Assembly (NCBI RefSeq): GCF_001595965.1
Contig: NZ_LOJI01000040.1
Coordinates: forward strand, 278 to 64,277
Length of the DNA: 64,000 bases
Source of the DNA: Polynucleobacter yangtzensis
Lineage (GTDB): Bacteria; Pseudomonadota; Gammaproteobacteria; Burkholderiales; Burkholderiaceae
Direction: 5' to 3'
Of this stretch, positions 21,473 to 29,751 are shown one piece after another. The first letter of the stretch is position 1. Every line of letters starts with the position of its first letter. The translations under genes were made by a program, and so were the position numbers. The notes below the pieces were generated by a model, which saw nothing but the letters and a program-made list of their open reading frames with translations, was not told where the DNA came from and searched no databases.

Positions 21473-22720
21473 TTAGATCACCTTGTCGTGACGGAGAGAA
21501 ATCAAATCGTCAGTGGTGTAACCCAACTCATGAAGAATCTCATCGGTGTGCTCACCAAGCAATGGTGAACGTGTCACTTCTGTTGGGCTATCAGACATCT
21601 TGATTGGGTTACCAACAGTAAGGTACTTGCCACGAATTGGATGATCCACTTCAACCACGGTGCCAGTAGCACGCAATGCAGGCTCTTCAGCGATTTCTTT
21701 CATGGACAAAATTGGGCCGCATGGAATGTCGTACTGATTGAGGATATCCATTACTTCAAACTTGGTCATCGTCATAGTCCACTTCTCGATCTCGCCGAAA
21801 ATTTCCATGAGATGTGGCAAGCGCGCCATTGGTGATGCAAAACGTACATCAGTAATCCAATCTTCACGACCGATTACTTTGCAAATGGCCTCCCAAACTG
21901 GAGCCTGAACGATTACATACATATAGGCGTTTGGATCTGTTTCCCAACCTTTGCATTTCACAATCCAACCTGGCTGACCACCGCCAGAAGCATTGCCTGC
22001 GCGGGGTACAGAGTCGCCGAACTCACCGTTCGGGAACTGAGGGTACTCTTGCATCAAGCCAACACGCTCTAAACGTTGTTGATCACGCAACTTCACGCGG
22101 CACAAGTTCAATACTGCATCTTGCATTGCTGCCAATACCTTCTGACCACGGCCAGAGTGAGTACGTTGATACAGGGCAGTCACAATACCGAGCGCTAAAT
22201 GCAAACCAGTTCCGCTATCACCGATTTGTGCACCAGTTACCATCGGAGGACCATCATCAAAACCAGTCGTTGATGCTGAGCCGCCCGCGCATTGCGCTAC
22301 GTTCTCATACACTTTGCAATCTTCGTATGGGCCAGGACCAAAGCCTTTTACAGAAGCCATGATCATCATTGGATTAAGTTCTTGTATACGCTCCCAAGAA
22401 AATCCCATGCGATCCAAAGCACCTGGTGCAAAGTTCTCAACTAAAACGTCGCACTCTTTAATGAGGCGCTCAAGAATTTCTTTACCCTTTTGGGTTTTCG
22501 TATTCACGGTAATAGAACGCTTGTTATGGTTCAACATCGTGAAATACAAGCTATCAGCATCAGGGATATCGCGCAACTGACCGCGTGTTGCATCACCTTC
22601 GCCAGATTTTTCTACTTTGATTACGTCAGCACCAAACCAAGCCAGTAACTGAGTACAGGTTGGGCCTGATTGAACGTGCGTAAAGTCGAGGATTTTGACC
22701 CCTTCTAGTGCTTTTGCCAT
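21473..22720 (-). CDS. formyl-CoA:oxalate CoA-transferase paralogue 1 (CaiB/BaiF family)
   Basis: [52 protein letters not shown]. Confidence 0.88.
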
Positions 22721-22860: not shown

Positions 22861-23289
22861 CTAAGTCTGAGGATTTTCAAGATCAGCAAGACGCTTTTTG
22901 AGAGCCCTTTCTTGGGCAAAGCGCTCGGTTTCATCCCGAATGATGGCTACCACCCCATTGGCCTTACCAGAGGCGTCAAATAGCATTCCTACTGTAAAGG
23001 CGATCGACAGCATGCTGCCATCCTTATGTTTGGCAGGCACCTTCAATAGAGATGTTCCATAGCGAGTGGTGCCTGTCTCCATGGAGTGGCTGTAACCTTC
23101 ATTGTGTTTTTGACGTTGGCGCTCTGGAACTATGAGATCCAAAGTATTTCCCAAAGCCTCTTCTTCCAAATATCCAAAGATACGAGTTGCGGCAGGATTC
23201 CAAAGCACGATCTTTTCATGGGCATCAGCCACGATGATCGCATCACCTACGCACTCCACTAATTGATGTAAATCGATATCGGTATTCAT
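22861..23289 (-). CDS. single PAS-domain protein
   Basis: VGDAIIVADAHEKIVLWNPAATRIFGY...KDGSMLSIAFTVGMLFDASGKANGVVAIIRDETERF. Confidence 0.85.
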   Translation of the reverse strand: MNTDIDLHQLVECVGDAIIVADAHEKIVLWNPAATRIFGYLEEEALGNTLDLIVPERQRQKHNEGYSHSMETGTTRYGTSLLKVPAKHKDGSMLSIAFTVGMLFDASGKANGVVAIIRDETERFAQERALKKRLADLENPQT

Positions 23290-23360: not shown

Positions 23361-24611
23361 TTAAACTGCTTTAGCTGTGTGCAACTTAGCGATATCATCA
23401 GCGCTATAGCCAAGGTCAGCCAACACTTCATCAGTGTGCTCACCCAATACTGGAGATGGTTTCACTTCGATTTCCAAATCAGAGAACTTGATTGGGCTAC
23501 CGATTGTCAAATACTTGCCACGTACTTTGTGGTCAACTTCAACGATAGAACCGCTCTTACGCAAGTCTGGTGAAGCAGCCAATTCTTTCATTGAGAGAAC
23601 TGGAGCGCATGGAATATCGAATTTGCGGAGGATGTCCACAGCTTCGTACTTAGTCTTATCTTTGAGCCAGTCTTCGATAGTTGCGAAGATGTCAAAAATT
23701 TTGTCTTGACGAGCTTCAGCAGTCATATATGCTGGATCAGTTGCCCACTCTGGTTTGCCCAAAGCCTTAGTAATTGGCTCCCAAGCGTGACCTTGAATTG
23801 TGAAATAGATATACGCGTTTGGATCTGTTTCCCAACCCTTACACTTCAAAACCCAACCTGGCTGACCGCCACCACCAGCGTTACCGCCGCGTGGAACTAC
23901 GTCAGTGAATGAACCGTGTGGGTATTGTGGGTACTCTTCCAAGTATCCAACTTTGTCTAAACGTTGTTGATCGCGCAACTTCACGCGGCACAAGTTCAAT
24001 ACAGCGTCTTGCATTGAGCAAGATACTTTTTGACCTTTGCCAGTTTTTTGACGCTGCATCAACGCTGTCAAGATACCGATTGCCAAGTGCATACCAGTGT
24101 TTGAGTCGCCCAAAGCAGCAGCAGAAACTGTAGGAGGACCATCCCAAAAACCAGTAGTAGAAGCAGCACCACCAGCACACTGGGCAACGTTCTCATACAC
24201 TTTCAAATCTTCGTATGAGTGGCCATCACTAAAGCCCTTAACAGAAGCCAAAATCATTTTTGGGTTCAACTCCTGAATACGCTTCCAAGAGAAGCCCATG
24301 CGGTCTAATGCGCCTGGGCCAAAGTTCTCAACCATTACATCTGAAACTTTAATCATCTTCTCTAAAACTTCTTTACCTTCTGGAGTCTTAGTATCCAAAG
24401 TCAAAGAGCGCTTGTTGCCGTTCAACATAGTGAAGTACAAAGCGTCAGCGCCTGGAATATCGCGCAATTGGCTACGAGTAACGTCGCCAGCACCTGGACG
24501 CTCAACCTTGATGACGTCTGCGCCATAAAAGCCCAATAACTGAGTACATGCAGGACCTGCTTGTACGTGTGTAAAGTCAATAATGCGAATACCGTCTAAT
24601 GGTTTAGTCAT
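23361..24611 (-). CDS. frc: formyl-CoA:oxalate CoA-transferase
   Basis: [61 protein letters not shown] glycine loop. Confidence 0.92.
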
Positions 24612-24659: not shown

Positions 24660-26369
24660 TTACTTCTTAGCAGCTGCTGTGGATGGGTTTAAGTTTGTTA
24701 AACGTCCACTCTCAGTACCTGCAGTTTCATCAATAACAGCATTGATGAGAGCTGGTTTACCGGCAGCAATTGCTTCTGTTAAGGCTGCTTCTAACTCTGC
24801 TGGTGTAGTTACGTAGTAACCTACGCCACCAAATGCTTCAATCATCTTGTCGTAACGAGCGTCCTTAACAAACACGGTGGGCGCAACATCAGCACCGCCA
24901 GTTGGATTAACGTCGGTACCGCGGTATACACCGTTGTTATTGAAAACAACTGTTGTAATTGGCAAGTTGTAACGGCAAATAGTTTCCAATTCCATACCGC
25001 TGAAACCGAACGCGCTATCACCCTCTACGGCTACTGTTGGCAAACCGCTAGTTACAGCAGCACCAATCGCATAACCCATACCGATACCCATAATTCCCCA
25101 AGTACCAGAGTCAAAACGCTTACGTGGCTTATACATATCAACGATTGCGCGGCAATAGTCGAGTGTATTTGCACCTTCGTTTACCAAGTTCACATCTGGG
25201 TTCTTCTTGATCACATCACGAATCACACGCAATGCACCATGGAAGTTCATTGGGTTTGCTTCTTTAGCCAATGTCTCAGCCATCTTGGCTGTGTTCTTAT
25301 CTTTCTTCTCGGTGATAGCTGCAATCCACTCAGCGCTTGGCTTGGGAACAGCAGAGATGCCCTTCAAGAGCTCACCAACGCATGAACCAATATCACCAAT
25401 TAATGGAGCAGCGATTTGTACGTTGCTATCAACTTCGTTTGCCTGAATATCGATTTGGATAAATTTCTTAGGTTCTTTACCCCAAGTTTTACCTTTACCA
25501 TGTGCAAGCAACCAATTCAAACGCGCACCAACCAATAACACTGCATCAGCTTCAGCTAATACAAATGAGCGCGCTGCAGAAGCAGACTGTGGATGATTGT
25601 CTGGCAACAAACCTTTAGCCATAGACATTGGCAAATAAGGAATGCCAGATTTTTCAACCAAATCACGGATCTCTTTATCAGCTTGAGCATAAGCAGCGCC
25701 TTTACCCAACAGAATCAATGGACGCTTAGCACCCTTCAACACGTCCAATGCACGAGCAACCGCATCGGCCGCTGGGATCTGACGTGGAACTGGATCGATT
25801 ACCTTGAAGATGGATTTCTTAGCTTCTTCAACAGGCATTGTTTGCGCGAGCAACTGTGCTGGCAAGTCCAAATACACACCACCTGGGCGACCAGAAACCG
25901 CAGCGCGAATTGCACGTGCAAAACCGATGCCAATATCTTCGATATGGTTGATACGATAAGCAGCTTTGCAATATGGCTTAGCCGCGTTGAGCTGATCCAT
26001 CTCTTCGTAGTCGCCTTGTTGCAAGTCAACGATTTCACGCTCGCTTGAACCAGAGATCAAAATCATTGGGAAGCAGTTCACAGTTGCATTAGCAAGTGCT
26101 GTTAAGCCATTCAAGAAACCAGGTGCAGAAACTGTCATGCAAATGCCTGGCTTTTGCGTCATGTAACCAGCAATCGCTGCAGCATTACCTGCATGCTGCT
26201 CATGACGGAAGCCAATAAAACGCAAACCTTCAGCCTGTGCTAAACGACATAAGTCGGTAATTGGAATACCAACCAGGCCGAAAATCGTATCAAGGTCGTT
26301 TGCCTTTAAGGCATCAATGACGAGATGGAAGCCATCCGTTAACTGTGTGTTTTGATTATCTGTTGTCAT
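24660..26369 (-). CDS. oxc: oxalyl-CoA decarboxylase
   Basis: ThDP enzyme; [66 protein letters not shown]. Confidence 0.94.
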
Positions 26370-26491
26370 AGAAATTTTTCAAGAATCACAAATCGCCCGA
26401 TAAGGGCTAATGCAATTTAGCTTTCGCTAATGTCTCCAATTTAGTTATTAATCGCACTGCGGAATTTTTGACCCCGCTTAGGCTGAGATGA

Positions 26492-26534
26492 ATATTAGGC
26501 TTGGGGAGGGGGTTCATCATTGACTTCGGTCAAT
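26492..26534 (-). promoter_or_regulatory. candidate oxc promoter: FNR/FixK-type dyad plus -10 TAATAT
   Basis: ATTGAC-N4-GTCAAT at 26519-26534; minus-strand TAATAT at 26497-26492; 22 nt between core dyad and hexamer. Confidence 0.6.
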
Positions 26535-26571: not shown

Positions 26572-27192
26572 TTATACAAAAAGCTCTTTATGCTTTGTTT
26601 TGAGGCGACTCAGTGTCTCCGGGGAGAGGTTGAGATAAGCCGCCAGCTCCTTTTTAGGAAGGAGCTCAAACAAATCCTCGTATTTACGCAGGAAACGCTC
26701 CACCCGACCCGGGGCATCGAGCATATGCAAAGTAATCGTATGGGCCATGATTTCACTCATCAGGCGCATGACTTCAAACTCAAAACTCTCTTTCAGAATC
26801 TTGTGCTCATCCAAGAACTCCGCCCACTTCTTGAGGGGCATCCGAGCCACGCGGGCCTTGGTCACAGAGGCAATACTGTAGGGGGCAGCCGTCTTCAGAC
26901 GCCATGCCGCATAGCTAGTTTCAATATCTTTTTCGATGGCAAAACGCAGGATCATTTCTTTTGCATCTGCACTAGAAACAATACGCTTTAGGATGCCGTC
27001 CAAAACAAAGTACTGCTCCATCTGATGGTCGCCTTGATGAAGCAAAATTTCGGATTTTTTGAGGTCCGAGATCTCTAAATGACGCTCCAACTCAGCCATT
27101 GCAGCTGGATCTAAGCTTTTTAAGACCGAGTTTTGGCTCAACTGCAGGCGAATCAGGTTCTTTTCGGGATGCTTATCTAATACGGTCATCAA
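26572..27192 (-). CDS. Crp/Fnr-family transcriptional regulator
   Basis: cNMP-like beta roll and HTH KKELAAYLNLSPETLSRLKTKHK. Confidence 0.9.
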   Translation of the reverse strand: MMTVLDKHPEKNLIRLQLSQNSVLKSLDPAAMAELERHLEISDLKKSEILLHQGDHQMEQYFVLDGILKRIVSSADAKEMILRFAIEKDIETSYAAWRLKTAAPYSIASVTKARVARMPLKKWAEFLDEHKILKESFEFEVMRLMSEIMAHTITLHMLDAPGRVERFLRKYEDLFELLPKKELAAYLNLSPETLSRLKTKHKELFV

Positions 27193-27279
27193 TACTTGCT
27201 CCTAGAGCTCACATTGTAGGCTTTTTTACATTTTTAAGCGGGATTTGGGGGCTTTGACCTCAGCAGATAAGCTAGAATG

Positions 27280-27500
27280 GCGGGGTCGTGGTGCTTTATT
27301 GCAATGCAATAAAGTTAAACGGGAAACACTAAACGTGTGCTGCCCCCGCAACGGTAGGTAAATGCGCCTTTTATTCATTTGAAAGGCGTCAGGAATCTGA
27401 CAAAGCCACTGTGCGCGTCAATCGCATGGGAAGGCCAGATTCTGATATTTACTAGCCCGGATACCGGCCAAGACAGGTGGAATTTTGCGGACGGGGATCT
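27280..27500 (+). promoter_or_regulatory. cobalamin (adenosylcobalamin-type) riboswitch
   Basis: GTGGTGC, GGGAAACACTAAACGTGTGCTGCCCCCGCAACGGT, GCCACTG, GGGAAGGC, B12 box AGCCCGGATACCGGCC (27454-27469). Confidence 0.93.
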
Positions 27501-27618: not shown

Positions 27619-29751
27619 ATGAACTTGCAGTTAAAGCAGAAAAAAATCGCCGTAGTATGTGGCACCCTTCTCTCCCTCAGCATCAACCAGCTAGCATTTG
27701 CACAAAATAATCCATCTACACTCATTGTGACTGGTACGCGATTTGAGGAAAACCTTAATCAGGTCCCAGCGAATGTCAAAGTGATTACGCGCGATGAAAT
27801 TGAGAACTCAACCTCCAACACAATTCCTCAGGTGCTATCACAAATTGGCGGCTTAAGAGTAAGCGGTTTAAATTCAAGCGCCTTAAATTTAGATGCATCA
27901 GTCGACATGGGTGGATTTGGACCAACCGGCAACAGCACAACCGCAATCTTGGTTGATGGCATCCGAGTAAATCCAATTGATTCAGGAAGCGTCGACTGGG
28001 AATCTATTCCAATCGATTCCATTGAGCGTATCGAAATTCTTCAGGGTGGCGCAAGTGTTCAATACGGCAATGGTGCAGTTGGTGGCGTGATCAACATCAT
28101 CACTAATGGTGGCAAGAAAACAATTAACCAGGCCTCTGCGACCTACGGCACTTGGGGCACCTCCATTAACAATGCCATCTTTAGAAATACAGTCGATAAA
28201 ACGACTTTACAAGTCAGCGCCAACACATCGAATACCAATGGCTGGCGTCCTAATACAGGGGCAAACGCCTACTCTATCGATGCGAAAATTTTGCAAGATT
28301 TAGGCAACAGAGATCGCTTTTTTGTTGATGCATATTACGGCTACACCAATTCACAACTTGCTAGTCCTGTAGTGGGATTGGTTGGCTCAGGAAACCCACT
28401 CTCCGTTAGACCGCAAAATGCGGGCAATAACATAACAACCAATAATTCTGGCTTTCGCCAAGGATTAACAAAAACATTAAGCGAGAATTACGTAGTAGAA
28501 ATCGATACCTCTTATAACAATAAATCCTCTTTCTTCTACGTACCCCAAGCAGATTACTTTGCTAGCCCCGAGTTTGGTTCAGCCGGTAGTCCGATGAATA
28601 ATAAATTGCAAGGCTGGCAGCTTGCTTTGTCACCGCGCCTGAAAGCAGACTTTGGCGTTATTGGCACTTCGATCTTTGGCTATGATTTCTCGAAAGCGAA
28701 TCAAGCTGGAAGCAATAGCTACACGCCACAATCTCAAAGCATCATTCTCGCGAATCAATTCGATGCCACGAGCAATCCCTTTGGAACTTATTACAACAAT
28801 CTAACAAGCGATTCGCAAAACGCCACACAAATTAATAATTCAGTCTACGTAATGCAAAGAATTCCCCTAGGAAATATTTTGGAGGCAAGCGGAGGATTCC
28901 GTCGACAAGTGCAGCAAGCATCAACAACTAGCTCTGCCATCACCGCTTCCAATGGGACTGTCTCTGGCAATCAGCAATATGCTGCCAATGCAGGAGATTT
29001 AGCGCTTAATGCTAACTACCTGCCAGGACAACGTGTGTATGTGAAGTGGAATCAGTCCTTCAGATTCCCCAATATTGACGAATACTGGGGCCTGCTATAC
29101 AACCCAACAACCCAAACTACATCAACCGTCTTTAGCGGGATTTTGCAACCACAAACAACTCAGACATATGAGGTTGGCGGCAACTGGGATGTTTTGAGTT
29201 CTAAAGTGACATCGTCGATATTTAAGTCTATGACACAAAATGAAATTAGCTATAACCCCGCCACAGGTTACAACTACAACTCAATTTATCAAGTGAATCG
29301 CGGCGGAATTCTATTGGATGTTGCATCTAATATTTCACCCTCATTCAATATTGGCTTCGGAGGAAAATACCAAAAGTCATACTATGCCAATGGGCCATTT
29401 TCCGGAAATGCTATTCCAGTAGTTCCAGACACGCTTCTTAATGCTAGAGCGAATTACCTCATTGCAACAAATTGGACCATTGGTGGAGTAGTGAATTACG
29501 TTAGCAGTCAGCATTACGATACCGGCCCAAGCTACTACAGCGCAACACCAGTGATGCCGTCTTACGTCATTGGGGATATATTTACCTCGTATAAGTTCCA
29601 AGGCATTGAAGCACGTCTTACAGTCAAAAACGTTGGTAATGCGCAATATGCCACGTACGGAACTGCGCCAAGCAATGTCTCTAGTCGTTACTCTTACTAT
29701 CCAAGCGAACCAAGGTCGGTTTTTGTAACCCTGAAATACAACTTCAATTAA
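27619..29751 (+). CDS. btuB: TonB-dependent outer-membrane receptor, BtuB-like
   Basis: TLIVTGTRFEENLNQVPANVKVITRDEIENSTSNTIPQVLSQIGG plug; C-terminal VFVTLKYNFN; downstream of B12 riboswitch. Confidence 0.85.
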   Translation: MNLQLKQKKIAVVCGTLLSLSINQLAFAQNNPSTLIVTGTRFEENLNQVPANVKVITRDEIENSTSNTIPQVLSQIGGLRVSGLNSSALNLDASVDMGGFGPTGNSTTAILVDGIRVNPIDSGSVDWESIPIDSIERIEILQGGASVQYGNGAVGGVINIITNGGKKTINQASATYGTWGTSINNAIFRNTVDKTTLQVSANTSNTNGWRPNTGANAYSIDAKILQDLGNRDRFFVDAYYGYTNSQLASPVVGLVGSGNPLSVRPQNAGNNITTNNSGFRQGLTKTLSENYVVEIDTSYNNKSSFFYVPQADYFASPEFGSAGSPMNNKLQGWQLALSPRLKADFGVIGTSIFGYDFSKANQAGSNSYTPQSQSIILANQFDATSNPFGTYYNNLTSDSQNATQINNSVYVMQRIPLGNILEASGGFRRQVQQASTTSSAITASNGTVSGNQQYAANAGDLALNANYLPGQRVYVKWNQSFRFPNIDEYWGLLYNPTTQTTSTVFSGILQPQTTQTYEVGGNWDVLSSKVTSSIFKSMTQNEISYNPATGYNYNSIYQVNRGGILLDVASNISPSFNIGFGGKYQKSYYANGPFSGNAIPVVPDTLLNARANYLIATNWTIGGVVNYVSSQHYDTGPSYYSATPVMPSYVIGDIFTSYKFQGIEARLTVKNVGNAQYATYGTAPSNVSSRYSYYPSEPRSVFVTLKYNFN

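Follow-up and report, generated by a model that had tools for sequence, protein, structure and literature searches.

The oxalyl-CoA decarboxylase gene (oxc) of Polynucleobacter yangtzensis lies behind a gene for a CRP/FNR-superfamily regulator, with an inverted repeat between the two. This arrangement raises the question of which protein reads the repeat and whether oxalate breakdown is thereby switched on or off.

Gene content of the oxalate cluster

The window, i.e. the whole 64,000-nt stretch of DNA that was analysed, carries the regulator, oxc and two frc genes all on the minus strand, the regulator coming first:

26572..27192, minus strand: CRP/FNR-superfamily regulator, 206 aa from TTG (PF00027 over cut-off; AlphaFold model)
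26520..26533, no strand: dyad TTGAC-N4-GTCAA, 14 bp, proposed operator (sequence, unique in the window, conservation)
26492..26497, minus strand: -10-like hexamer TAATAT (22 nt past the dyad core; position fixed among Polynucleobacter rows)
26485, minus strand: predicted oxc transcription start, 7 nt beyond the hexamer (from the spacing)
24660..26369, minus strand: oxc, oxalyl-CoA decarboxylase, proposed target (TIGR03254, 987.8 bits, cut-off 739.4)
23361..24611, minus strand: frc, formyl-CoA transferase (TIGR03253, 723.6 bits, cut-off 504.2)
21473..22720, minus strand: second frc-type formyl-CoA transferase (TIGR03253, 731.6 bits)

As frc begins 48 nt past the end of oxc on the same strand, the two genes probably form one operon, of which the second frc-type gene is a possible further member. 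For the regulator, an ATG at 27189 (205 aa) is more likely to be the start than the TTG. A 142-aa stand-alone PAS-domain protein is encoded between the two frc genes of the oxalate cluster (22861-23289, minus strand) and is a possible sensory partner. The plus strand carries a cobalamin riboswitch (RF00174, 75.4 bits, 27272-27486) upstream of a 710-aa ORF (27619-29751) that, judged by reading, presumably resembles a TonB-dependent receptor.

The dyad and its promoter geometry

The minus-strand sequence that separates oxc from the stop codon of the regulator includes ...GGGAAATTGACCGAAGTCAATGATGAACCCCCTCCCCAAGCCTAATATTCATC..., and direct reading confirmed that the dyad sits there, as the original prediction had stated. 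Including the flanking A/T, the dyad extends to 16 bp (26519-26534; ATTGACCGAAGTCAAT on the minus strand, 26534-26519). The 22 nt previously said to separate it from TAATAT apply if the count begins at the 14-bp core (26533-26520) and become 21 nt if it begins at the 16-mer. The predicted centre of about -41.5, which assumes that transcription begins 7 nt beyond the hexamer, was reproduced on recalculation: with the start at 26485, the centre at 26526.5 corresponds to -41.5. The promoter would thus have a single dyad at class II distance (-41.5) from a -10 element, a placing that depends on the predicted start. No consensus -35 element was found before the hexamer in a scan of the minus strand.

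TTGAC-N4-GTCAA occurs once in the window versus 0.05 expected, and genome-wide it was not enriched (three sites versus three for a reversed-pattern control). The motif count alone is therefore insignificant, and the case rests on position and conservation.

In most Polynucleobacter, the oxc leader contains a conserved TTGGAGAC...TAGCGAAAGC element (26417-26445 in the window, minus strand), which is present in a single copy in the genome and missing from short-leader species. A structured leader RNA between the start site and oxc was considered and rejected, as the sequence is conserved but showed no compensatory pairs and no Rfam match.

Conservation of dyad and spacing across Burkholderiales

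Of 399 Burkholderiales genomes sampled, 76 encode an orthologue of the regulator and 75 have oxc over cut-off. Both genes were present in 67 of the genomes, the regulator alone in nine, oxc alone in eight and neither in 315, a co-occurrence count that ignores shared ancestry. In a phylum-wide sample of 398 genomes, regulator matches at 1e-25 were confined to Burkholderiales. Two genomes of the genus (G016 and G022) have both the regulator and oxc broken (loci L137 and L141), which is consistent with joint loss.

The adjacent regulator-oxc pairs of relatives were searched for loss of the dyad. TTGAY-N4-RTCAA was found before oxc in all 81 distinct adjacent loci scanned (30 co-directional in Polynucleobacter, 42 divergent, and nine co-directional in other families; shared ancestry ignored), and the spacing from dyad to TAnnnT was kept in 78 of the 81. 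Within Polynucleobacter, TAnnnT lies 22 nt past the core in 30/30 rows. In a second collection, which overlaps the first in species, the dyad precedes oxc in 80/80 loci, with TAnnnT at 22 nt in 77/80 and at 23 nt in 3/80. Pooling of the two sets (30 + 80 rows, overlapping in species) gives 110 rows that all contain the dyad, 107 with a spacing of 22 nt and three with 23 nt. Among the other families, TAnnnT lies at 22 or 23 nt in 48 of the 56 promoter rows; composition-preserving shuffles of these rows averaged 3.2 and never exceeded 11, and offset pairs that include neither 22 nor 23 nt reached at most three rows.

Genomes encoding oxc but not the regulator provided the reverse comparison, and no dyad was found in the 340-600 bp examined upstream of 11 such oxc genes (eight from the order sample, plus G003, G014 and G024 of the same genus). 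The proposal that the neighbouring regulator activates oxc-frc through the dyad is strongly supported by the comparison across genomes (81/81 loci with the dyad, 0/11 where the regulator is absent).

Separated genes and other putative targets

In four genomes where the regulator is encoded elsewhere, oxc still has the dyad (G038, G044, G092, G352); the two promoters of this kind that were counted, those of G038 and G044, showed no TAnnnT at 22-23 nt. Regulator and oxc are also apart in G087, G171 and G214, where oxc has no dyad and the regulator instead adjoins a frc-like gene bearing the dyad with the 22-23 nt spacing. The loci of G178 and G362 are cut by contig ends.

The same dyad with TAnnnT at 22-23 nt was found at loci with no adjacent oxc, before frc-like CoA-transferase genes at six loci and before a gene for a TPP enzyme of the acetolactate synthase/2-hydroxyacyl-CoA lyase type at seven, with the -10 on the target-gene side of the dyad. 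Two such loci also hold genes for a formate-tetrahydrofolate ligase and a formyltransferase beside them. One of the TPP-enzyme loci (L140, in G043, a genome without oxc) encodes the closest regulator outside the genus (70%), placed amid two equal-scoring TPP-enzyme genes that each have a dyad and a -10 at 23 nt.

On contig C3 of the own genome (L142:2985-2998), TTGACTGYAGTCAA precedes an AAA-ATPase gene of unknown role, with a TATGAT -10 at 22 nt. The gene occurs in 3/41 genomes of the genus, both relatives keep the dyad and the 22-nt spacing, and it is a candidate second target. A site on contig C35 was attributed to chance, being located within the coding sequence of a CoA-transferase and having no -10 at the right distance.

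The regulator protein

The regulator matches PF00027, the cNMP-binding effector beta-barrel domain (31.2 bits, cut-off 27.5), and gave no match to Pfam HTH_Crp_2 or Crp at 1e-3. Its AlphaFold model (pLDDT 92.7) is most similar to GlxR and other CRP proteins (TM 0.82 to CRP/GlxR) and also matches FNR, over about 200 columns. The E..SR residues noted earlier in the recognition helix proved invariant in 58 aligned orthologues (E191, T192, S194, R195), as are K68, R69, R82, T91, W96, P103, I106, W122 and H155. Together, the full-length model match and this invariant helix indicate that the predicted fold includes the C-terminal helix-turn-helix of the CRP/FNR superfamily. Regarding Fe-S cysteines, the window protein has no cysteine and the 58 orthologues have no conserved cysteine column. 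The label FNR/FixK-type given in the original prediction therefore suits the DNA site and the geometry of the promoter, whereas the protein itself does not match it.

In CRP, cAMP is held by E72, R82, S83, T127 and S128 (PMC11253593); according to a phmmer alignment, the equivalent positions here are S, variable, P, V/I and M. The invariant R69 and R82 map to positions lining or adjoining the cAMP pocket of CRP, R82 being aligned in the phmmer alignment with CRP S62, the adenine contact. An anionic effector is suggested by these two arginines at pocket positions and by the replacement of the CRP E72 and R82 contacts, and it is possibly a small anion of the pathway, either oxalate or oxalyl-/formyl-CoA. 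By contrast, the arginine that DdrI has at the position of CRP S62 fills the pocket (PMC11253593), so that by analogy a ligand-free regulator is also possible. A plasmid search returned only distant homologues of the regulator, most of them Bacteroidetes proteins at 24-34% identity. We tentatively suggest that the orthologues might constitute a CRP/FNR lineage of their own, with oxalate or oxalyl-/formyl-CoA sensed directly in a former cAMP pocket now lined by arginines, and with control over the metabolism of oxalate and formyl-CoA throughout Burkholderiales.

Which protein reads the dyad, and with what effect

Taken together, the regulator very likely serves as a dedicated class II activator of oxc-frc and acts via the neighbouring dyad. 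Evidence against this assignment includes the lack of enrichment of the motif in the genome, the oxc genes of G087, G171 and G214 that have no dyad, the trans promoters without TAnnnT at 22-23 nt, and a half-site, TTGAC, that is one base off the FNR consensus. One other PF00027 protein is encoded in the genome; it is FNR-like, carries N-terminal cysteines and has cco-type genes as neighbours. FNR is able to accept a TTGAC half-site (TTGACTTAAATCAA has been described; PMC7349173); the dyad might accordingly be read by this canonical oxygen sensor, with oxc as an anaerobically induced FNR target. We consider this very unlikely, as G003, G014 and G024 have FNR relatives yet no dyad at oxc, whereas G010 keeps the dyad and no FNR match was found in it, and as the dyad goes with the adjacent regulator to other genes. 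Moreover, position 5 of both half-sites is C in nearly all Polynucleobacter, in contrast to TTGAT-N4-ATCAA, the form over-represented in the own genome (18 versus 2). Over-representation of the TTGAT form but not of the TTGAC form suggests two distinct reading specificities. The 18-versus-2 count itself only suggests an FNR regulon, since class II geometry was mostly not evident at the ten FNR-type TTGAT sites inspected in this genome.

If the neighbouring regulator binds the dyad, it might instead repress oxc-frc, or switch between repression and activation with an effector; the binding evidence is the same for both, and the sequence does not reveal whether regulation is positive or negative. 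However, the dyad occupies the place of a -35 element with the -10 at class II distance, and promoters that depend on an activator typically lack a consensus -35, as was the case in the minus-strand scan. Repression appears improbable, and the class II position speaks for activation. The original prediction also raised the alternative of a 6-bp RNA hairpin. Placed in the 3' untranslated region of the regulator, such a hairpin might be a terminator or a site of processing, but we give this reading almost no credence. The predicted RNA does form the 6-bp stem, but the folding is ordinary (z -1.7) and no terminator match was found. Furthermore, the innermost pair is broken (C with A) in 12/86 rows with flanking positions often unpaired, the dyad still precedes oxc in loci with a divergent regulator, and a hairpin would leave the fixed dyad-to--10 distance unexplained.

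Proposed mechanism and significance

Under class II activation, a dimer of the regulator would occupy both TTGAC half-sites of the dyad, whose centre is at -41.5, and bring RNA polymerase to a promoter in which a -10 is present but a -35 is not evident. In this way oxc-frc, and probably also the genes behind, would be switched on. The dyad, its spacing, its linkage to the regulator and its conservation are directly observed in the sequences, and from them we infer binding, activation and the start site. The regulator would be pathway-specific, its orthologues and their putative operator co-travelling through Burkholderiales, where they precede oxc, genes for related TPP enzymes or those for frc-like CoA-transferases.

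A CRP/FNR-type regulator of oxc-frc was not found described in the open-access literature, in a search covering few subscription journals, nor was a dedicated bacterial oxc-frc regulator in Burkholderiales found in searchable open-access papers. Although the mechanism belongs to a familiar type, the oxalate regulator-operator system thus appears undescribed in the searchable literature, its novelty being provisional. With regulator, operator and promoter geometry named in dozens of genomes, the oxalate-breakdown switch becomes testable by gel shift and reporter assays, and the regulator-operator pair is a candidate oxalate biosensor. Polynucleobacter species have been reported as not assimilating oxalate, with four species described so and one lineage found so in tests (PMC5018217, PMC3308952). 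Such species may keep the operon for energy gain or for detoxification and not as a supply of carbon, and the regulator provides a lead on this question.

Comparison with known regulators

Among solved structures, the best match to the regulator is 3dn7 from Cytophaga hutchinsonii (E 1e-8), a Bacteroidetes-type Crp/Fnr protein that is too distant for function transfer; to our knowledge, proteins of this type have no oxalate link. The regulator shares its fold, by model comparison, and the PF00027 cNMP-binding domain with E. coli CRP and GlxR, but the cAMP contacts E72, R82, S83, T127 and S128 of CRP are replaced. The half-site of CRP, TGTGA, differs from that of the dyad. FixK/DNR-type regulators, which have no Fe-S cluster and read a TTGA-type palindrome, are alike in both respects, DNR being a weak match to the regulator (E 0.0055), and differ in that the regulator is linked to oxalate genes.

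The promoter itself most resembles FNR-type class II promoters, in which a single activating site is centred at about -41.5 and ETxSR reads the TTGA half-sites (PMC7349173). As at those of E. coli and Ideonella (PMC7349173), a palindrome of TTGA half-sites with a 4-bp spacer lies at about -41.5 from the predicted start, followed by a -10 without a clear -35, and the E-T-x-S-R of the FNR recognition helix is also found in the regulator. In contrast to FNR, the regulator has no conserved Fe-S cysteines and its dyad has TTGAC half-sites in place of the FNR-preferred TTGAT; and while FNR governs a global regulon, this regulator adjoins and is co-inherited with one pathway.
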